Assembly: GCA_025356475.1 (NCBI GenBank)
Contig: JANXSX010000141.1
Span: 1 to 32,999 of the forward strand
Source of the DNA: Isosphaeraceae bacterium
Lineage (GTDB): Bacteria > Planctomycetota > Planctomycetia > Isosphaerales > Isosphaeraceae
Direction: 5' to 3'
Length of the DNA: 32,999 nt
This document shows positions 18,835 to 30,490 of this stretch, piece after piece (the first letter of the stretch is position 1; each line of letters begins with the position of its first letter). A program made the position numbers and the translations under genes. Below the pieces are notes generated by a model. The model made no database searches, was not told the origin of the DNA, and was given only the letters and a program-made list of their open reading frames with translations.

Positions 18835-19470
18835 TCAGCGTGTGTGGGGTGATGGGGGCAAGCTAGCGACCGTTCGCACGGCTAATGGTTGCCCGAGTAG
18901 GCTCTTCCATCGCTCTCGCTGGAGTTCTGAGAGGGTTGCGAGAGTCCGCTCAGCGTACAAGTGTTCTACTTCGCCTCGAATCTTGCCGGTCGCCTGTTTG
19001 GCGTCTCGGTCAGCAAGTGACTGGCGAAGTGTTTGGATCTGTGAGGCGGTGAGGCCAAGCGAGGATGTGAGGATCGGCCGGCTAATCAGTGCCGACGGTC
19101 CTTCCCACTGAAGATCAAGTTGAGCCAATCGCTCGCGTTGGCTCGGGCTGAGAAACCTCTCCAGCCAGCGTTTCTGGGCGTCTTCCAGGAGCTTCCGAGC
19201 TTCGAGCAACGGTGGAGTGTCTGGCCCACGCAGAGTTGCGGCCCGACTCCGGAGGTCGGCGATCGCGCCTCGAGCGGCTTCGATCTGTTTTGCCTCGAGT
19301 CTGAGATCCGCCTGAACCTCGGGTCGACTCAATAGCAACAGTGGGGCGGTTCTCGCTCCAAGGGCAATGTCGGGTAGAGTCCAGTCTCCCCCACTGGCAC
19401 TCGTTCCGAGCCAACCGCCCAGTCCGACCAAGAGTACGCCTATCCGCATCCAGCGATCTCGCTTGACCAT
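18835..19470 (-). CDS. Secreted helical protein, paralogue of the 372-aa neighbour
   Basis: The 211-residue product has a signal peptide (about residues 1-27, GTSASGG). It shares with the product of 19634-20752 the order LLLLSRPEVQADLRLEAKQ, then WLERFLSPSQRERLAQLDLQ, then WEGPSALISRPILTSSLGLTASQ and RERWKSLLGQPL. The repeated 'LxLTxxQ' pieces recall LTXXQ-type periplasmic helical proteins (Spy/CpxP-like), though I cannot claim membership. Function is unknown. A terminator separates it from the upstream paralogue, so it probably has its own promoter. Confidence 0.72.
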   Translation of the reverse strand: MVKRDRWMRIGVLLVGLGGWLGTSASGGDWTLPDIALGARTAPLLLLSRPEVQADLRLEAKQIEAARGAIADLRSRAATLRGPDTPPLLEARKLLEDAQKRWLERFLSPSQRERLAQLDLQWEGPSALISRPILTSSLGLTASQIQTLRQSLADRDAKQATGKIRGEVEHLYAERTLATLSELQRERWKSLLGQPLAVRTVASLPPSPHTR

Positions 19471-19633: not shown

Positions 19634-20752
<1,119 letters not shown>

Positions 20753-20944: not shown

Positions 20945-21667
20945 TCAGCCCACTTTCGAGCGGGCCAACCACAGAGCGAGACCTGCAACAGCGCTCAAGG
21001 TGGCCATCCAAACCACCAGCTTATAGACCAGGAATCGCCCTTTCTCCTGGGTCTGGTCCTGCTGTAAGGTCGATACGGCATTCAGGCCGACAAGATGGAC
21101 CAGGCCAAGAAGAACGAAGCCATAACCATGCTCTACCCAAGAGCGCCAGGGGAGTGGGGGGATTCCCGGTTTCCAGTTCGACGGGGTTGTCAGTGGCTTG
21201 TCCGACTGATAGACCAGCAAGTTTAACATTTGTTTGTCGGAACTCGTTGTATCACTGACCCAGAGGTTTAACGCGATTGGTCTGGGAGTCCCTTGGGTTG
21301 GCGTTCCTTCGACGGTTCCTGTCTCGGAATCAAATGTTAAGCCTGTTGGCAATTCCCCATCCAGCATCCACCGGCGAGGTCCAGTTCCACCGGTAGTTGC
21401 GAGGGCCAGGTGGTAAGGGCGACCCGCGATCGCCTCTGGAAGGTCGGACGGGGTCGCGATCTTGATCGGGGCCTTCTTTGCAGCCTCGGCGTCCGAACTC
21501 GCCACCTGATCAACACCCTTGGGGATCAAGGCCATAATCACCATCGTCAGCAACAAGATGAACAACAATGCCCCGGTCAGTTTGGTGACGACCACGGCGA
21601 CGAACGAGTCTTCGCCCGACCCACCAAACTCATGACCTGAGGAACTTCCCCGGCGCTGGCGTCGCAT
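20945..21667 (-). CDS. Membrane protein with a putative Ig (He_PIG-like) extracytoplasmic domain
   Basis: The 240-residue product has a short basic, Gly/Ser-rich cytoplasmic start, then TM1 (about 22-48, VAVVVTKLTGALLFILLLTM). A beta-sandwich domain follows (about 68-152) with the He_PIG pattern GELPTGLTFDSETGTVEGTP. Two further membrane segments lie near 181-200 and 213-236. The stretch GEDSFVAVVVTKLTGALLF before and into TM1 loosely recalls the acidic residue plus single TM of ExbD/TolR/MotB-type partners. It follows the MotA/ExbB-like gene by 54 bases, so I infer it may be that protein's partner. It is the last gene of the operon. Confidence 0.76.
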   Translation of the reverse strand: MRRQRRGSSSGHEFGGSGEDSFVAVVVTKLTGALLFILLLTMVIMALIPKGVDQVASSDAEAAKKAPIKIATPSDLPEAIAGRPYHLALATTGGTGPRRWMLDGELPTGLTFDSETGTVEGTPTQGTPRPIALNLWVSDTTSSDKQMLNLLVYQSDKPLTTPSNWKPGIPPLPWRSWVEHGYGFVLLGLVHLVGLNAVSTLQQDQTQEKGRFLVYKLVVWMATLSAVAGLALWLARSKVG

Positions 21668-21721
21668 GGTCCGTCGGCCTCCTTGCCGCCCCGATCCCGA
21701 AACATCTCTCTACCGGATGGA

Positions 21722-23008
21722 TCAGGCTGCCTGATCCTCGGAGACCACGTTCAAGGTCGGCATCATTTTCTTGACGATACTTCGGTAGAGCGAGTTGCCC
21801 TGTTCGATGCTGACGTGGATCAGTTCGAGCGCGTCTTTGAGGTTGTTCAGGGTGCGGGCGAGCTGATCCTGGGTTTGGCGGTTCGATCGCTCGTAAGCAC
21901 CTGCGAACGACTGCGAGAGGCTCTCGATCGAGCCGGAAGCCTTGTCGACCGAGCGTTTGATCTCATCAAGCCGATCTGAAGGGGCATCACCCGATCCGAG
22001 TGTGGACTCGATTCGACCGAGGGTGGCGACACCGCGACGGAGACTCTCGCCCGCGCTCGTAACCGACCCAAGCTCGTTTGAGACACGCTCCATGGCCTCC
22101 GCGCCACGCTGGAAGCCAGCCATCGTGAGCGGGAGTCGATCCACGGTCTGCGAGAATCGCTCGACATGAGGCCCGAGCCCATCGCCAAGTCGGTCGCCGA
22201 GGGCTCGTAACGCTTCGTCGATCTTCAACAGCATTGGTGCAAGTTCGGAAGTGGCTTGGGACGATGCACCCAGGCGTGGCAATGCGTGCTCAACTACCCA
22301 GCGATCGACCCTTGCCAGAAGCTCATCACAACGACGATGGATTAAGGTCTGTACCAACATTAGTGATGCGCTCAAGAAGAGGGCGAGAAGTGTACTATCG
22401 AAGGCGACTTGAAGCGCGGATGTCACGCTGGTTAAGTTATTCATGAAATCGTCGAGGTTCTTCACCATGGGAAGAACCCGACTGATATTCATCAATGCGT
22501 GCGAGATCCCTTCGACCGTGCCGATGAAGCCGATGATCGGCAGCAGATAGAGAATGTATTTCGGAAGCGTGAATCGGCCTGCCGCCTGTTCCTGGTCGAG
22601 GCCGGACGCTTCACGGTTCAGCTCCATGAGTTCCGCCGCAGGGCGACCCTTGGAGGTGAACAACTGCCGAAGTCGCGCGGGCAAGAGGCGAGGCTCATCG
22701 GGATCGACCACGAGGTCGCCGGCGGTGAGAGATTCGGCCAACTCCGTTGTGCCCTCGAAAGCTTTTTCTTCCGACCATAGCCTTCTGAGTTCTAGCGCAA
22801 GCGTCCCGAGTGCCCAGAGGTAAAGGCTCGTACCGGCGTACTGTTCCCAGCCTCGCTTAAACATCAAGGTCGGGTTGAAAATCATCAGAGCGATCGGAAA
22901 GGCCAGCGCCAATCCCATGATCGCCAGAGTGCCCCAGTAGGCCCGCTTCAAACCGCTGAGCTTGCCAGACATGCGCGTGCCCCTTCCTGGGACCTTGAGT
23001 CGTTCCAT
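21722..23008 (-). CDS. MotA/TolQ/ExbB-like proton-channel protein with a long C-terminal helical tail
   Basis: The 428-residue membrane protein has TM1 (about 24-44), TM2 (60-78), a cytoplasmic loop, TM3 (about 150-168, LLPIIGFIGTVEGISHAL) and TM4 (about 202-223, FDSTLLALFLSASLMLVQTL). The TM3-TM4 layout and the G-x-x-GT-x-x-G motif are typical of the MotA/TolQ/ExbB proton channel domain. Residues 225-428 form a long hydrophilic, heptad-like tail unlike short ExbB proteins and closer in plan to ZorA-type channels. A second start at M13 (22972, preceded by AGGAAGGGG) is possible. Genes on both sides are within 15 and 54 bases. Confidence 0.83.
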   Translation of the reverse strand: MERLKVPGRGTRMSGKLSGLKRAYWGTLAIMGLALAFPIALMIFNPTLMFKRGWEQYAGTSLYLWALGTLALELRRLWSEEKAFEGTTELAESLTAGDLVVDPDEPRLLPARLRQLFTSKGRPAAELMELNREASGLDQEQAAGRFTLPKYILYLLPIIGFIGTVEGISHALMNISRVLPMVKNLDDFMNNLTSVTSALQVAFDSTLLALFLSASLMLVQTLIHRRCDELLARVDRWVVEHALPRLGASSQATSELAPMLLKIDEALRALGDRLGDGLGPHVERFSQTVDRLPLTMAGFQRGAEAMERVSNELGSVTSAGESLRRGVATLGRIESTLGSGDAPSDRLDEIKRSVDKASGSIESLSQSFAGAYERSNRQTQDQLARTLNNLKDALELIHVSIEQGNSLYRSIVKKMMPTLNVVSEDQAA

Positions 23009-23023
23009 CTCTTGTTCTCTTCG

Positions 23024-23509
23024 TCAATCGTCGGGCACAGACTTGAGCTCAAATCGGAAATCGCAGTGGGTCGCGCCCTGCATCAAGGTTTGGGTCCTTG
23101 TCAGTTCAATCGCCGAGTTAAAGCCCTCGACAAGTGCGAAATCCCTCTGACACGACAAGCTTGCCCCAAGGTCCGAGATCCCGAGGGATCGATACATTTC
23201 CGCATACTTGCAGCGCGTCACATTGAACGACAAACGCTCAGCCGACTGTTCAAGGACCTCAATTTCGAGGGCTCCCCCCGCATTCCACCGACCCAGGCAT
23301 CCTGCGAAGGCTTCGAGTGAAGTTGCCCCGAACTCTTGTGCCAGCCCAGCACCTGATTCCTTCGCCAGTTGAGTAATCACCTGGCGAACGACATCAAGGG
23401 AACGTTCTTCACCAATCTCGGCGATGAAACCTCGGATCAACGGCCCGACGATCTTGGCTTCGATCTCTCTCCGTTCCAGGAGTGTCAAAGCTGGTCGTTC
23501 ATCCGCCAT
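23024..23509 (-). CDS. L-2-amino-thiazoline-4-carboxylate hydrolase-like protein
   Basis: The 161-residue cytoplasmic protein has the C-terminal signature of the ATC hydrolase family: FNVTRCKYAEMYRSLG (95-110), LSCQRDFALVEGFN (118-131) and ELTRTQTLMQGATHCDFRF (135-153). These contain Cys100, Cys120 and Cys149. The founding member opens ATC on the way to L-cysteine, but most homologues are uncharacterised and often act near transcription or redox genes. Here it is squeezed between a secreted protein gene (24 bases) and a MotA/ExbB-like gene (15 bases), which does not suggest thiazoline catabolism. A heme, redox or sensing role is possible but is inference. Confidence 0.8.
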   Translation of the reverse strand: MADERPALTLLERREIEAKIVGPLIRGFIAEIGEERSLDVVRQVITQLAKESGAGLAQEFGATSLEAFAGCLGRWNAGGALEIEVLEQSAERLSFNVTRCKYAEMYRSLGISDLGASLSCQRDFALVEGFNSAIELTRTQTLMQGATHCDFRFELKSVPDD

Positions 23510-23533
23510 GCGTCACGACTCCGGGGCGAGGTT

Positions 23534-24793
23534 TCAGGGAAAGTTGAAGCCGGGCAGTTGGGCCGGGAAGCCGGGCATCCCTAAAAACTGATGGATCGAG
23601 CTGCAACTCTGGCCCATTAACTGGACTTGTTGAATATTGGGTCCGGTCCGACCCTGAGCGATCCGGCTGGTTCGTCTTGCCAGTCGCTGGAAGCAATCAT
23701 CGACGTCCCGAAATTGATAGGCAAGCCGACCTAGGTCAGCACCGGCGACGAGTTCGTTGCGAAAGTTGATGGTCGCGTTTCGCATTCGACCAGCATCATC
23801 AAGGAACTGGCGACCCTCTGGGACTCGACCGGCGGTCGCACTAAAGACGCGTATGAAGTCATCAAGCTGACCGAGCAACTGGTCGGTCACTGGGACCAAG
23901 TTGGCAGCGGGTCCAGGAGCTGTGACAGGGGGAAGGACCTGGGGCGGGATGGGACTGGCTACGACCGTCGTTCCGAGGTTCAATCGCTGGCGAAGTAAAG
24001 CCTCAACCGATTGATAGGCCGCCCAGTTGTTCCTCACGTTGGGTGTGAGGACGACCCCGGCGTAGTCGCGACGCATTGCTTCGCCGATGCTGAGAGTCTG
24101 ACCAAACTGACCGGCCACATCTTGCGCTGGAATTCGGTTGGATTCCAGTGCGTCATGAAAGGCGTCCCCAGCGCGAGCGAGATCGTCGGCCTCCCGAGCG
24201 AGAAGGTTCCCATTCGGGCCCGAGAGCATTTCTACCCGGACCGTTGAGGAGAGGGCAAGAGCCCGGTCAGCAAGTGCGTGAGCCAGTCGGCGGGTCTCAT
24301 CCAGGCCGGTTAGTGGCGGCCCTTGGCCGTAAAAGTCTCTTGGAGTTGCATTGAGCCCTAACAACGCCTGAAGCTGGTTATCCAACTCGTCGATCCGAGC
24401 GACGGAGCGGTCGACTCCAGGGGCTGGCCCGAGCCCGACCGAAGGCCTCAAGAGCTGGCCACGCACAGTCGACCAGGCGGTGTTGATTCCCCGGAATTGC
24501 TGACGGAGTCGGTTGGGGTCAGTATTCTGGTTTGAGCGTGCCGCGAAGTCGTCAAGTGATTGTGAAAGTTCCTCGACGTCCTGTCGGAGATATTGCGAGC
24601 CAGGCGTTCCTGCGAACGAATCGCCTGCCTCCTCGCCCAGAATCCGGACCCTTTCCGCCATCCGTTGAGCTGTTTGGGTGACCTGAGCGGGGTCGATCTG
24701 AGGGGCGAACCCGATTTGCTGGGCTGAGCCAGACGAGATCAGTCCCAGCCCGACCACAAAGGCGACTCGCCAAGAACTAAGAGCTGAGGGCAT
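23534..24793 (-). CDS. Secreted alpha-helical protein of unknown function (operon leader)
   Basis: The 419-residue product has a signal peptide (MPSALSSWRVAFVVGLGLIS, cleavage near SGSAQ). The mature protein is rich in Ala, Arg, Gln, Leu and Asp with long predicted helices. It is arranged as three related stretches (about 40-130, 140-260 and 290-395), each pairing a helix ending in an R-x-[LF] pattern with a 'D..DDF' or 'D.L' segment (VEELSQSLDDFAA, ADDLARAGDAFHD, LLGQLDDFIRVF). The ATG at 24793 has GGGAG eight bases upstream. The frame extends to 24865 without need. It is the first gene of the four-gene operon and is likely periplasmic. Confidence 0.75.
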   Translation of the reverse strand: MPSALSSWRVAFVVGLGLISSGSAQQIGFAPQIDPAQVTQTAQRMAERVRILGEEAGDSFAGTPGSQYLRQDVEELSQSLDDFAARSNQNTDPNRLRQQFRGINTAWSTVRGQLLRPSVGLGPAPGVDRSVARIDELDNQLQALLGLNATPRDFYGQGPPLTGLDETRRLAHALADRALALSSTVRVEMLSGPNGNLLAREADDLARAGDAFHDALESNRIPAQDVAGQFGQTLSIGEAMRRDYAGVVLTPNVRNNWAAYQSVEALLRQRLNLGTTVVASPIPPQVLPPVTAPGPAANLVPVTDQLLGQLDDFIRVFSATAGRVPEGRQFLDDAGRMRNATINFRNELVAGADLGRLAYQFRDVDDCFQRLARRTSRIAQGRTGPNIQQVQLMGQSCSSIHQFLGMPGFPAQLPGFNFP

Positions 24794-24904
24794 GGAGAAA
24801 ACTCCCAGGTGAGTGTCGTTACTGTCGTTGGATGATGCCAGGCTCTTACGCGGGTTGGGACCCATAGACTCGTCACGAGTTAGTCAGTGTGTACAACCAC
24901 TCCT

Positions 24905-26073: not shown

Positions 26074-26335
26074 ATTACGGTGTGTCGCCTACATGAGACA
26101 CCACCTCGACTGACTCCTCACGGGCGATCTTCGTGTATCCCGGTCGATGATTGTTTGATTATGGATGATCACAGCTAGGCCTTTTCGCCGGTCTGAGATG
26201 TAGGCTCACATGGATGGGCTTATCACTCGATTGTTGCCAGAAGTGTTGGCTGATGGATTGAGGATCTGGCCGTTCGGACGGAATTCGAACTGGTCTTCTT
26301 GCACGGACGCCCCGCGACGCTCAGCGAGGGTGGAT
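26074..26335. other. Intergenic region before the large surface protein
   Basis: No gene is supported here. An in-frame ATG at 26210 could extend the large protein by 42 residues, but it lacks a convincing SD and the extra residues are not a signal peptide. No clear promoter pair or hairpin was found. Confidence 0.45.
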
Positions 26336-29300
26336 ATGTCGAACTCACGGAAGCGACGCGCTGCGTTTGCAGCGCCAATCTCTGCCCTGGAAACCCGGTG
26401 CCTCCTTTCAGGAGTAACCGGAACCTGGATCGGACAGGATGGCCACGACCTCGTCGGCCCAGGTTCGATTCCAGGGGGCGATGATGTCCAGGATATCCGA
26501 ATTGCGCTGAGCGGTTTGCCCGCAGATAATGCGGTGACTTCTGTTAATGTTCGCGGTCTGGGCGGTGGTGAGTGGACGATGAATCCGCCACCAGGGCCTG
26601 CTCCATGGGCTGCAGCCTTGACACGAGCCCCTAAATCGACGTCCGCCGACTTGTTTATTGAACCATATCAGGTTGAGAATCATCGGACGTTCTCCGTCGA
26701 GTTGGATTACGCCGACGGAACCAAGGACTATCTCTGGGTGAAAGGGGGGACCGCTGACCCCAATCTCCGGATGCCCCACGCTGCCCTTACCGCAGGCTGG
26801 ATCGGTCAAACCAATGTCGACCTGACCGGCCTCGGGCCAAACGTCGGACCTGACGGTAAGGTTGATACGCAAATCAGGCTGGGAAATCTTTCGATAACGT
26901 CCGAGATCACCAGCGCGGTCTTGACCAGTCAAAATGGCTCTACCTGGACGTTCGGCACCAATCCCCAAGCGGGGAACTCCGCCGAGCTGATCCGTCGCTC
27001 TGCGGATCCAACCACGGCTGATTTCTCATTCCAGGCCGACCATAACCTTGTGGGCCAGTCGCTCACACTGGTCCTGAATTACGGTAATGGGAAGACCGAT
27101 TCGCAGTCGCTGGTCGCGGGAGTAACTTCTCCGACGTTGTCGATGCCAACCCCGCCTCCCTTGGCGATCAGTTCAAACGTGTTGACGGGTCAATGGATTG
27201 GTCAGGTCGATGATCCTGCGGCTGGCCGAGGTGCGGTGAAAGCGACCATCGGCGGGATTCCCACGAGTCGGACGATCGCTGCCGCGACCCTAAGCGATCC
27301 GGTCGGAGGCTCCTGGACCTGGGTTGCCCAGCCCGATGGGCCGATCTTTGTCGATCCGGCGGCCGGAACACTGATCCTGCGACGATCGACTTCGGATCTG
27401 AGCAAGGCGGATCTGCTCTTCCCGCCCAGCCGAAACGAGTTGGGATCGGATCTGACCGTCCGGTTGGTGCTTGACGATGGGACGACCATTGTTAATAAGT
27501 TCATCGGTGGCTTGTCCGACGTTAGCAAGCGAGCCCCCCTCCCCGCTTCGAGCTCGGTCGTTGCCAAGCCCGGTGATGATCTCAACCTGCTGGCAACCAA
27601 GTTCGGCGCGATCAGGCTCTCGGCTGGAATCTACAACCTCACCGAGCCTCTGGTGCTCAATTCGCCGGTGACCATCACCGCCGATCCCGGTGCCACCCTG
27701 CTCTTTTCGCAACCGGCCAACTCCGCCGAATGGTCAGCCGCGATCAAGATCAAGGCGGGGAATACCACGCTCGACAACTTCGCTGTTCGATTCTCGGGCC
27801 CAATCCGCTGGCGGAGTGATATCAGCTACGGACCGGCAGTCATTGGGACGTCGGACAATACCGATCCTCCCAACGGCAATATCCTGGTCGGCATCAACCT
27901 GACGAGGCTCGACCTCCAAGGTCCCCAGGCCAACTCGAGCTGGGATGAGGCGATTCGTCTGATGAGACTCGTCTGGGCTCGGTCGGGTAGGGTCGTCGGC
28001 AATACGCTCAAGGGAGGCCCGGTCGAGTTCTTCGGCGGACCTTGGACCGTGACCGACAACACGTTCCTTGGCACGATGCCCAACACATATTCTTATAATA
28101 TCTTTTCGGTCCATGCCACTCATGACCTCGACCTGAGCCGGAACGTCGTTTCTCAGGCGTTCGACGCAGGGAAGACCTGGCGATTTCTGGTCATGACCTA
28201 TGGCGGTTCAAACGACGTTATTCAGAACAACATGATCTCGGGTATCGGACCCATTGATGGCGACGGCGTCCCCGACGTCAATGCAAATGAGATCATCCTG
28301 ACTGAGGCCTATAGCCTGAAGTTCGAGGGTGTCCCATCCTCTGTCTCTGCGGATGGTCGGATCGTTCAGATCAGTACAGTCCAAGGCGATGCCCCCCAGG
28401 CAGGAGACGTCGTTGCGATCCTCTCGGGCACCGGGGCTGGCCAGTATCGACGGATTGCACAAGTCTTGAGTCCAACAGCCTACTTGCTCGATAGTGGACT
28501 CCCAGCGGGGAGTGGCGCTATTTCGATCGCGATGGGATTCGTGGGGGAGACCTTTCAGAACAATACAGTCGATGCCAGGTCGAGCATCGTGGCGTCAGAT
28601 CTGGTTCTGGCAGGGAATCACTACGGGACAAAGGTGATCGGCAACCATTTCATGGGGGGGGCGTATCCCCTGCGACTGGAAGCCTCACCCTCGGAGCATC
28701 CTAATAACTGGGGATGGTCACACGTCTCATTCTTGGGAGCGACGATCTCCGGAAACACCCTCGAAGATGGTTGGATCGGATCAAGCTTGTCGGTCAGCCA
28801 AGGTACGCCGGTGAAGACAAGTCGTGGCCGCACCTACTTCTCGGGTGAAGTCAGCGATAACACCTTCGGCTGGTCGCAAGCCTTCTTGACCAAACGACTC
28901 AAGGCGGGATTCTCGACCGATCCCCTCAACCTGATTCTCGACGGTGGCGACTCAGCGGGTCTGAGCCTGACGGTCCGTGGCAATCGTGTGCTTGAACCTG
29001 CAGGAATGGTGCCGGGTGGGTCGCTGCAGATCACCTCGGCGATGATCAATGGGGTCTTCCAGGCCCGCCAGACGATCACGCTACCCACCGCACCTCCTCT
29101 GCCCCCTAGCGGTCTCAGCCTTGTCAATGATACAGGTATCAGTGCTACCGATGGGATCACTAACGATTCTCGGATGCAGATCGATGCCCTGCGGGGCTCA
29201 GCGACCGGAGCCGAGTACCGCCTCGCAGGTTCAACAACGTATAGCCCGATCCCGGCGACGGGACTCTTCACACCAGCGGGATTGGTCCAAGGTGTGAACA

Positions 29301-30490
29301 TCGTTTCGGTGCGTCTCTATGACGTCACAGGAAATCGAGGTCCGGAGACCTCGCTGAGACTAACTTACGACACCGTTGCTCCATCCCCCTCTGCCCCAAT
29401 TCTTCTGCCGGAAAGTGATAGTGGACGGTCGCAGAGCGATGGCATCACCAACGTGACTGCCCCAGGTTTCGTTGTCCAGGGAAGTGACTTCACGACAGCG
29501 GTTCTCCTTCGTGATGGCGTCGCAGTCGCACAGAGGACGGATGCGGGAGTCCTTCGCGACCCTGGTTCTGCTACCGATGGTTTGCATAGTTACACCGTAA
29601 AGGCGACCGACCTCGCCGGCAACACGGCGACTAGTCCCTCGACCACAATTACGATTGATACCGTTCCACCAAGTCCGCCCTCTTCCCTCAGCTCCAGCAA
29701 CGACGGCAAGGTCTCATTCGCTTCGGGGGGAGGCGAACTGGTTTATGAATATCGACTCAATAACGCAACGAATTATACGCCCATCGGATCTGCAACCAAT
29801 CTCACCTTAACTGGGATGATCATTGGTGCCAATCAGGTCAAGGTCCGCTCGGTCGATGTGGCGGGTAATGCGAGTGCCGACGCATCGGTGACGTTCATCT
29901 ACAATCCAGTTGCCATCCCGAAAGTTCTCTATCTCGGGCAGGATGGACACGATTACACAGGTTCGCGGCCCAGTCTAGGAGGCGATGGCTATCAAGATAT
30001 GAACTTTAGCCTTCAGAACCTACCGCCTGGTCGGTGGATCAGGGGCCTACAAGTGCGCGGGGTGGGCGGAGGATTCTGGTCGCTTCGTTCAACATCAGGG
30101 GCCTGGGCAGCAGCCGTTCTCCAAGTCCCAGGCGCAACAAGTGCCGACGTCTTCATTCAACCCACTCAACTCTCTACCAATCGTACTTACAACATTACGA
30201 TCACGTTTGACAATGGACAGACGCTTAACCTTTCAATCTCGGGCGTGACCTCCCGGTCGAGGTTGCCGGTGGGGACTTCCCTCGCTGGCCAGCCGAGGCC
30301 GACCGGTGATCTGCCTCCCTTGAACTTCTCCCCTAGCGTCTTGGGAAGTCAGAGCGTCACCACCACGACAACTCAAGTTGTGGGACATACGTGGCAGCGC
30401 CCGAGCTTTATTATTGGCAGGCCTGCCAATGCCACAGCGTCAAAAACCATCACCGTTAAGCATCACTCGATACGTCGTCACGGTGTTTGA
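26336..30490 (+). CDS. Large LExR-motif surface protein: four WIGQDGHD repeats, beta-helix, Ig-like modules
   Basis: The 1384-residue exported protein begins with a basic stretch (MSNSRKRRAAF) and the planctomycete N-terminal motif LETRCLLSG, an LEPR-xLL-type sequence. Repeat 1 (about 27-147) starts GTWIGQDGHDLVG. Repeats 2 (152-272) and 3 (282-396) are more divergent and start with GWIGQ and GQWIGQ. Residues about 415-915 form a right-handed parallel beta-helix of the pectate-lyase type with NxT/NxF-like turns (GNTLKGG, DNTFLGT, NNMISGIG). About 922-1190 are Ig-like modules with DTVAPS and DTVPPS linkers. Repeat 4 (1197-1312) starts LYLGQDGHDYTG. A basic tail ends the protein. It may bind or cleave a polysaccharide; no catalytic residues can be assigned. 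ATG 26336 has GAGGG seven bases upstream; ATG 26210 is an alternative. Confidence 0.85.
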   Translation: MSNSRKRRAAFAAPISALETRCLLSGVTGTWIGQDGHDLVGPGSIPGGDDVQDIRIALSGLPADNAVTSVNVRGLGGGEWTMNPPPGPAPWAAALTRAPKSTSADLFIEPYQVENHRTFSVELDYADGTKDYLWVKGGTADPNLRMPHAALTAGWIGQTNVDLTGLGPNVGPDGKVDTQIRLGNLSITSEITSAVLTSQNGSTWTFGTNPQAGNSAELIRRSADPTTADFSFQADHNLVGQSLTLVLNYGNGKTDSQSLVAGVTSPTLSMPTPPPLAISSNVLTGQWIGQVDDPAAGRGAVKATIGGIPTSRTIAAATLSDPVGGSWTWVAQPDGPIFVDPAAGTLILRRSTSDLSKADLLFPPSRNELGSDLTVRLVLDDGTTIVNKFIGGLSDVSKRAPLPASSSVVAKPGDDLNLLATKFGAIRLSAGIYNLTEPLVLNSPVTITADPGATLLFSQPANSAEWSAAIKIKAGNTTLDNFAVRFSGPIRWRSDISYGPAVIGTSDNTDPPNGNILVGINLTRLDLQGPQANSSWDEAIRLMRLVWARSGRVVGNTLKGGPVEFFGGPWTVTDNTFLGTMPNTYSYNIFSVHATHDLDLSRNVVSQAFDAGKTWRFLVMTYGGSNDVIQNNMISGIGPIDGDGVPDVNANEIILTEAYSLKFEGVPSSVSADGRIVQISTVQGDAPQAGDVVAILSGTGAGQYRRIAQVLSPTAYLLDSGLPAGSGAISIAMGFVGETFQNNTVDARSSIVASDLVLAGNHYGTKVIGNHFMGGAYPLRLEASPSEHPNNWGWSHVSFLGATISGNTLEDGWIGSSLSVSQGTPVKTSRGRTYFSGEVSDNTFGWSQAFLTKRLKAGFSTDPLNLILDGGDSAGLSLTVRGNRVLEPAGMVPGGSLQITSAMINGVFQARQTITLPTAPPLPPSGLSLVNDTGISATDGITNDSRMQIDALRGSATGAEYRLAGSTTYSPIPATGLFTPAGLVQGVNIVSVRLYDVTGNRGPETSLRLTYDTVAPSPSAPILLPESDSGRSQSDGITNVTAPGFVVQGSDFTTAVLLRDGVAVAQRTDAGVLRDPGSATDGLHSYTVKATDLAGNTATSPSTTITIDTVPPSPPSSLSSSNDGKVSFASGGGELVYEYRLNNATNYTPIGSATNLTLTGMIIGANQVKVRSVDVAGNASADASVTFIYNPVAIPKVLYLGQDGHDYTGSRPSLGGDGYQDMNFSLQNLPPGRWIRGLQVRGVGGGFWSLRSTSGAWAAAVLQVPGATSADVFIQPTQLSTNRTYNITITFDNGQTLNLSISGVTSRSRLPVGTSLAGQPRPTGDLPPLNFSPSVLGSQSVTTTTTQVVGHTWQRPSFIIGRPANATASKTITVKHHSIRRHGV

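Follow-up and report, generated by a model that had tools for sequence, protein, structure and literature searches.

A MotA/TolQ/ExbB-family protein and its constant genetic partner, a membrane protein with an immunoglobulin-like domain, probably form a two-gene wheel-and-axle complex in Isosphaeraceae

The stretch of DNA considered here (32,999 nucleotides, hereafter the window) is contig C28 of a 5.9 Mb draft genome of an Isosphaeraceae bacterium (JANXSX010000141.1, assembly GCA_025356475.1), and it carries four consecutive open reading frames (ORFs) on the minus strand: 20945-21667 (240 amino acids), 21722-23008 (428 amino acids), 23024-23509 (161 amino acids) and 23534-24865 (443 amino acids). 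They encode, respectively, a protein with an immunoglobulin-like (Ig) domain between transmembrane (TM) helices, a MotA/TolQ/ExbB-family protein, an ATC-hydrolase-like protein and a secreted helical protein. An earlier note on this DNA had described the four as one envelope operon, and the ORF calls do place them as it stated, with gaps of 54 (first to second), 15 (second to third) and 24 bases (third to fourth). The last gene is present as well, its end alone having been misplaced, since position 24793 is an internal ATG of the 23534-24865 ORF, directly preceding the signal-peptide-like stretch of the 443-residue protein. A scan for promoters and terminators returned nothing beyond what shuffled sequences give. 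When gene order is followed across the family, the conserved core looks like the pair formed by the 428-residue protein, here called the wheel, and the 240-residue protein, here called the axle or IgTM, with the ATC-hydrolase-like and secreted helical genes as mere neighbours. As judged from sequence comparison and structure models, the two core proteins probably form a wheel-and-axle complex.

The wheel (21722..23008, minus strand) is, on sequence evidence, a member of the MotA/TolQ/ExbB family: a profile search matches it to MotA_ExbB (PF01618) with 32.8 bits for a cut-off of 22.9, and its AlphaFold2 model has four TM helices and a helical cytoplasmic tail covering approximately residues 250-415. 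TolQ, ExbB, ZorA and MotA head the structure comparisons of this model, with Z scores of 13.4 for TolQ (8odt), 10.7 for ZorA (8vvn) and 9.7 for MotA (8gqy); rows 1 to 19 of the comparison (Z 13.4 to 10.7) are all TolQ, ExbB or ZorA, and the first unrelated row stands at Z 10.6. A sequence search of solved structures gave nothing useful for either the wheel or the ATC protein. Of 36 relatives in the family, 35 yielded a wheel orthologue; together with the window these make up the 36 loci in which conservation was followed, with up to about 15 kb read around each of the 35 where the contig allowed. In an alignment of 33 of the 36 orthologues (L054, L063 and L069, with a long or truncated frame, being excluded), the mean pairwise identity reaches 0.89 in TM3 (residues 148-181, 22466..22567, minus strand) and 0.84 in TM4 (residues 185-225, 22334..22456, minus strand), vs 0.42 and 0.60 in the two halves of the tail. 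TM3 holds the motif GTVEGIS with the invariant Thr164 and Glu166, and TM4 the motif AFDST with Asp204. Both acids are found in 33 of the 33 rows, and Glu occupies the 166 site in at least 95% of the rows once all 36 sequences are aligned.

The proposed axle (20945..21667, minus strand) is best described as TM1, an Ig domain of the He_PIG type, TM2 and TM3. The Ig domain matches He_PIG (PF05345) with 38.1 bits for a cut-off of 24, and the same family is matched at E <=0.01 by 32 of the 33 members of the axle alignment, which comprises the window and the 32 loci with IgTM within the stretch read. The AlphaFold2 model (mean pLDDT 79, pTM 0.45) shows a helix at residues 18-52, an Ig sandwich at about 85-150 and two further helices at 174-204 and 209-239, which fits the TM-Ig-TM-TM architecture given in the earlier note. 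Identity is distributed very unevenly along the protein: the segment of residues 17-49 (21521..21619, minus strand), composed of SGEDSF and TM1, is near-invariant, with a mean identity of 0.96 and a minimum of 0.85, as compared with 0.27 in the linker, 0.52 in the Ig domain (residues 68-155, 21203..21466, minus strand, presumably periplasmic) and 0.58 and 0.43 in the two helices, TM2 and TM3, of the C-terminal TM hairpin (residues 174-204 and 209-239, 20951..21148, minus strand). Such a pattern, in which one TM helix exceeds every other part of its protein in conservation, would be expected of a helix enclosed by a ring. Taken together with TM3 and TM4 of the wheel, conservation thus appears concentrated in the parts that would touch, rather than in the Ig domain and the wheel tail. 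When the axle served as query in fold searches, the matches were to Ig-like and other beta domains, none of those listed covering TM1 or the hairpin. An OmpA-like peptidoglycan-binding domain is found neither in the axle of the window, where only He_PIG is over its cut-off, nor among the families listed for the 33 rows.

Around TM1, Asp20, Thr28 and Lys29 are found in 33 of 33 rows and Glu19 in 32, so that the earlier note was right in placing acid just ahead of TM1 (Glu19-Asp20), and the helix itself is free of acid, no Asp or Glu being found at residues 21-48 in any of the 33 rows. The site of the canonical axle Asp was set at seven residues before a conserved Gly, a position at which 12 of 12 partners compared from outside the orthologous group have Asp, Ala, Ser or Thr; in IgTM this site is Val25 in all 33 rows, and the invariant Lys29 lies four residues, that is one helical turn, further in. 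The same Gly is used by the HMMER alignment of the TM1 of IgTM with that of a partner from another planctomycete family (G121, see below), in a match that is not significant. Since Asp20 lies five residues before Val25, it is not a position-for-position replacement of the canonical Asp.

The pairing of the two genes is consistent throughout the family. Of 45 Isosphaeraceae genomes, 43 have both a wheel (E <=1e-40) and a full-length axle, and the remaining two, G014 and G059, have neither of them, G014 showing only an Ig-domain match. At the level of gene order, the axle lies directly downstream of the wheel, on the same strand and within 700 bases, in 28 of the 36 loci; for the other eight, it is further downstream in three, close to the wheel, yet on its other flank and the opposite strand, in two, and outside the stretch read in three. 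As far as the genomes examined can tell, IgTM is therefore the constant genetic partner of the wheel throughout Isosphaeraceae. Carriers of the axle gene (32 loci) include Singulisphaera acidiphila, Tautonia sociabilis, Aquisphaera insulae, Paludisphaera soli and metagenome-assembled genomes labelled Isosphaeraceae, Planctomycetota or Planctomycetales. Three metagenome-assembled records labelled Candidatus Kuenenia stuttgartiensis (L131, L132 and L134) also carry an Isosphaeraceae-type axle, and their labels look wrong. Among the best candidates (nine or fewer per genome) in 293 other genomes of the phylum there was no full-length axle, only Ig-domain matches, which leaves absence from these genomes unproven. 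The evolutionary distances of wheel and axle are correlated with r 0.79 (33 loci), little above the 0.67-0.74 of other gene pairs (13-23 loci), and this correlation thus reflects shared, vertical descent and is no evidence of contact.

Wheel homologues outside the orthologous group place this arrangement in a wider context. Thirty such wheels were read, 28 from other families and two being Isosphaeraceae paralogues (L136 from the genome of the window and L149 from G004); the near-duplicates L141/L139 and L076/L073 were counted, and the repeats L155, L156, L162 and L169 were left out. In 23 of the 30 loci, the gene next to the wheel encodes a protein with an N-terminal TM stretch, and the partner test found none in the other seven (L144, L153, L154, L158, L160, L161 and L165), of which L160 and L161 have Asp-type TM proteins further off. 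The canonical Asp site of these 23 partners is Asp in seven (that of L136 having been read by eye) and Ala, Ser or Thr in 16, mostly of what may be called the SLFPFL type. Wheel partners with a TM1 of the type SLFPFLAVLICTMGALI and Ala, Ser or Thr at the Asp site occur at L073-L077, L139-L141, L143, L145-L148, L163, L166 and L168. As for the wheels, most have AFDTT or AFETT in TM4 (the pattern used for this motif misread L148), Asp204 is common to most of them, and Glu166 is found in none of the 29 that are readable at this site (L158 is not), where Leu, Ile, Met, Val, Gln or Trp stands instead. Judged from these sequences, the pairs whose partner lacks the acid (16 of 23) may be motors that work without an acid on the axle. 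Among the partners examined, the one nearest to IgTM in architecture is that of G121 (L157:284-1432), which begins 21 bases after its wheel and consists of a TM1 that keeps the intramembrane Asp, followed by three He_PIG domains and a TM at the C-terminus; this TM-He_PIG-TM protein is perhaps near the ancestral form of the Isosphaeraceae axle.

Motors of the ExbBD type depend on an ExbD-like partner, and one may ask whether such a protein serves the wheel of the window. None is encoded in the set of four genes, as the earlier note had stated: across all four proteins, the profile search gave zero ExbD matches at E <=0.1, and IgTM in particular does not match ExbD (PF02472) at that threshold. 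It is conceivable that IgTM is an accessory or regulatory subunit and that the true axle is an ExbD-type protein encoded elsewhere and shared with other ExbB loci, an explanation that would suit the lack of acid in the TM1 of IgTM. The genome of the window has seven places with PF01618 and seven with PF02472, the latter distributed over C23 (one), C147 (two), C187 (two) and C189 (two), and with three of the four loci holding two ExbDs each, one of them could be shared. However, each of these groups sits beside an ExbB of its own, so that an ExbD from elsewhere was rejected as the partner, and it would also be difficult to understand why conservation in IgTM is so much higher at residues 17-49 than elsewhere in the protein, or why outside wheels are so often followed by the gene of a partner that has an N-terminal TM. 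This explanation is accordingly considered unlikely. Three wheels of the genome are without ExbD, namely those on C139, whose partner has an Asp in its TM, on C28, with IgTM, and on C175, where no clear partner is seen at the locus. The C175 locus (L135) is peculiar in that its MotA_ExbB match lies in a 444-residue frame overlapping a 1029-residue frame, possibly a fused or frame-shifted gene, with ExbD absent nearby. What holds of the earlier proposal that the TM-Ig protein replaces ExbD, TolR or MotB is thus its stand-in role, on the basis of co-occurrence, gene order, the near-invariant TM1, ExbDs found only at other ExbB loci and partner genes at the same place in relatives.

In the wheel-and-axle complex that these data favour, five copies of the wheel, arranged as a ring in the inner membrane, would enclose the TM1 helices of an IgTM dimer, in the way ExbB surrounds ExbD and MotA surrounds MotB. 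Ions would cross at the interface of wheel and axle by means of the wheel acids, Glu166 in TM3 and Asp204 in TM4, with no Asp contributed by the axle, whose Lys29 might act as a fixed counter-charge. The Ig domain would cap the ring on the periplasmic side, and the C-terminal TM hairpin would return the axle to the inner membrane, in place of anchoring in the peptidoglycan. The model of the axle has linkers of only about 16 residues between the helix at 18-52 and the Ig domain and about 23 residues between the Ig domain and the helix at 174-204, so the axle would be unable to span the periplasm and the output is expected at the cytoplasmic tail; the helical tail of the wheel would then deliver relative rotation to the cytoplasmic side. 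In its most specific form, the proposal is that of a 5:2 motor with relocated charges, in which the acid has moved to the wheel (Glu166 and Asp204), the axle bears its invariant Lys a helical turn away from where the Asp used to be and is clamped by its hairpin, and all output is cytoplasmic, planctomycetes having a wider class of ExbB-like motors with Asp-less axles; this is put forward as a tentative possibility, rather less probable than its negation.

Several observations weigh against these readings. The AlphaFold2 models are of middling confidence, with pTM values of 0.45 (axle) and 0.54, TM2 and TM3 of the axle are seen through AlphaFold2 and hydrophobicity only, and the structure comparison tool itself cautions that helical models may reach Z values such as those of the wheel without kinship; Foldseek returned zero matches for the wheel at E <=0.001, the best having an E of 0.009. 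The pairing is not without exceptions either, as wheel and axle are apart in three of the 36 loci (by 10 and 15 kb in two, and on different contigs in one), and G014 and G059 are drafts, so that their joint lack of both genes may be an assembly gap. With regard to the charges, all rows of the family share Glu166 and Lys29, and their coincidence thus counts as a single evolutionary event, whilst Glu166 lies two residues from Thr164 and may therefore not face the axle. Moreover, the 16 of 23 outside pairs with acid-free axles have neither Glu166 nor the axle Lys; acid-free axles are there paired with wheels lacking Glu166, so that loss of the axle acid does not itself require this residue. Finally, with no Asp on its axle the pair might conduct no ions at all and act as a scaffold. 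A membrane scaffold or receptor in which the wheel fold was kept and ion coupling lost would agree with Val25 at the canonical site, with the absence of acid from TM1 and with an axle that has no recognisable peptidoglycan-binding domain, but intramembrane charges that are invariant on both partners (Lys29, and Glu166 and Asp204) would seem costly unless they are used. A non-energised pair is on balance improbable, if somewhat less so than a borrowed ExbD.

Comparison with known systems helps to delimit what would be particular to this pair. With ExbBD and TolQR, which are 5:2 motors composed of PF01618 and PF02472 proteins, it has in common the family and fold of the wheel, and a wheel gene followed by that of a partner starting with one TM. 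It differs from them in having no ExbD domain, in an acid-free axle TM1 where Val25 occupies the Asp site and Lys29 follows a turn later, in the Ig domain and C-terminal TM hairpin of the axle and in a wheel with four predicted TMs and a long helical tail. The unnamed planctomycete pairs of a wheel and an SLFPFL partner resemble it in their related wheels (mostly with AFDTT in TM4), in the position of the partner as the next gene and in the lack of an axle Asp in 16 of 23 cases; in contrast, those partners mostly show a single TM, the long rest of the chain often being coiled-coil-like, and the wheel Glu166 and the axle Lys are both missing. Genes for B subunits are reported to follow those for A subunits, and the A subunits outside flagella to differ greatly in the domains added to them (PMC12505986), and the model for MotAB has a protonatable Asp on an axle anchored in the peptidoglycan (PMC9389320).

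By analogy, the nearest known system in working principle would be GldLM, the motor of gliding and type IX secretion, in which the key acid is on the wheel, as proposed for the pair. The domains of GldM are of the Ig-like kind, and close to its TM helix the protein carries Arg9. Glu49 of the wheel GldL is needed to harvest the proton gradient, which provides a precedent for a wheel Glu as proton site, GldL has two TM helices and GldM one (PMC8986121), and the GldM axle has a large dimerising periplasmic part (PMC9389320). The axle of the window differs from it in that, judging by its model, the chain seems to fold back into the membrane and would be too short to cross the periplasm. Among the matches listed for the wheel or the axle in the profile scans there is no GldL or GldM family, no direct comparison having been made. 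If the reading is correct, this family-wide pair would test whether the acid of such a motor may sit on either partner, GldLM being the known case of a wheel acid, and whether a motor can work whilst held by the very membrane from which it draws its power. The pair also directs attention to a more extensive set of wheels with partners in planctomycetes. No description of this wheel and axle pair, nor of the planctomycete wheel and partner pairs, was found in the literature covered, most subscription journals lying outside that coverage.

Finally, MotAB shares with the pair the four-TM topology of the wheel (MotA), and ZorAB a wheel with a helical cytoplasmic tail (ZorA). ZorB and MotB carry an OmpA-like peptidoglycan-binding domain, a feature by which both systems differ from the axle of the window. 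The likeness to ZorA raises the question of a Zorya-like anti-phage system, and the wheel, tail included, is indeed weakly similar to ZorA (NF033915, 22.6 bits; best PADLOC E value 0.0014). However, this NCBIfam score is far below the cut-off of 100 bits, on which ground membership in Zorya was rejected, and a scan of the four proteins against defence libraries gave no match to any non-ZorA defence model at E <=0.01. Besides, one full-length wheel is present in nearly every genome of the family, with distances like those of neighbouring genes, unlike the patchy distribution of defence genes. A role in phage defence is thus very unlikely, the least probable of the explanations weighed.

Turning to the neighbouring genes, the ATC-hydrolase-like protein (23024..23509, minus strand) matches PF14196 with 117.6 bits for a cut-off of 28.1, its activity being predicted, and the earlier note had coupled it to the channel as a soluble, enzyme-like subunit of a four-gene envelope machine. 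The tight gaps in the window speak for such a machine, and so does the fact that in nine of the 36 loci the gene immediately upstream of the wheel is that for ATC, a count that is a lower bound because some contigs end near the wheel: in G015, the end of a contig carries the 5' part of the wheel gene immediately preceded by the ATC gene, which makes a tenth case across the contig break. In seven more loci the gene belongs to the same cluster, 3.2-3.4 kb downstream and on the opposite strand. Elsewhere, however, it lies outside the stretch read, and whilst the ATC hydrolase is encoded in 35 of 37 family genomes (and in two of 22 others), it adjoins the wheel directly upstream in those nine or ten loci, and the coupling is not supported. 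The secreted helical protein (443 amino acids, 23534..24865, minus strand), with no family over its cut-off in the profile search, is found beside the wheel in the window only (one of 36 loci). Its gene has no homologue in any of the 40 stretches read, and it is near full length in six of 58 other genomes and partial in ten more, always at other places, being missing or partial in most family genomes. The four-gene operon was thus dropped on gene order, although ATC and wheel genes adjoin in a quarter of the loci; as an explanation the four-gene machine is largely refuted and has little probability left, and of the four genes expected to stay together, the two-gene core survives.

In G018 (L138, G018:C53), about 0.85 kb separates the ATC gene from the helical gene, both being on the same strand and away from the wheel, an arrangement that counts in favour of the four-gene machine and from which the two genes may belong together, if loosely. 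Relatives of the ATC hydrolase are also found on 85 plasmid records, mostly from Sinorhizobium, Azospirillum and Ensifer, all of them with less than 60% identity.

Commoner companions of the pair are two genes for secreted proteins, which are possible accessories. The first (19634..20752) encodes an LTXXQ protein of the Spy/CpxP type (PF07813, 27.3 bits for a cut-off of 24.3) and is found downstream on the same strand in 20 of the 36 loci; the second (18835..19470) has no family of its own, seems LTXXQ-related and is found downstream on the same strand in 19. Both lie on the minus strand of the window, and in several loci both queries match one ORF, as is the case in L048 and L068, where the LTXXQ hit and the 18835 hit coincide in a single ORF. 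That these LTXXQ/Spy-like proteins accompany the pair more often than the ATC and helical genes may, as a hint only, mark a role in envelope maintenance. The window also encodes, at 26210-30490, a 1426-residue protein with Big_13 Ig repeats, a relative of which lies near the wheel in two of the 40 stretches read (L040 and L066).

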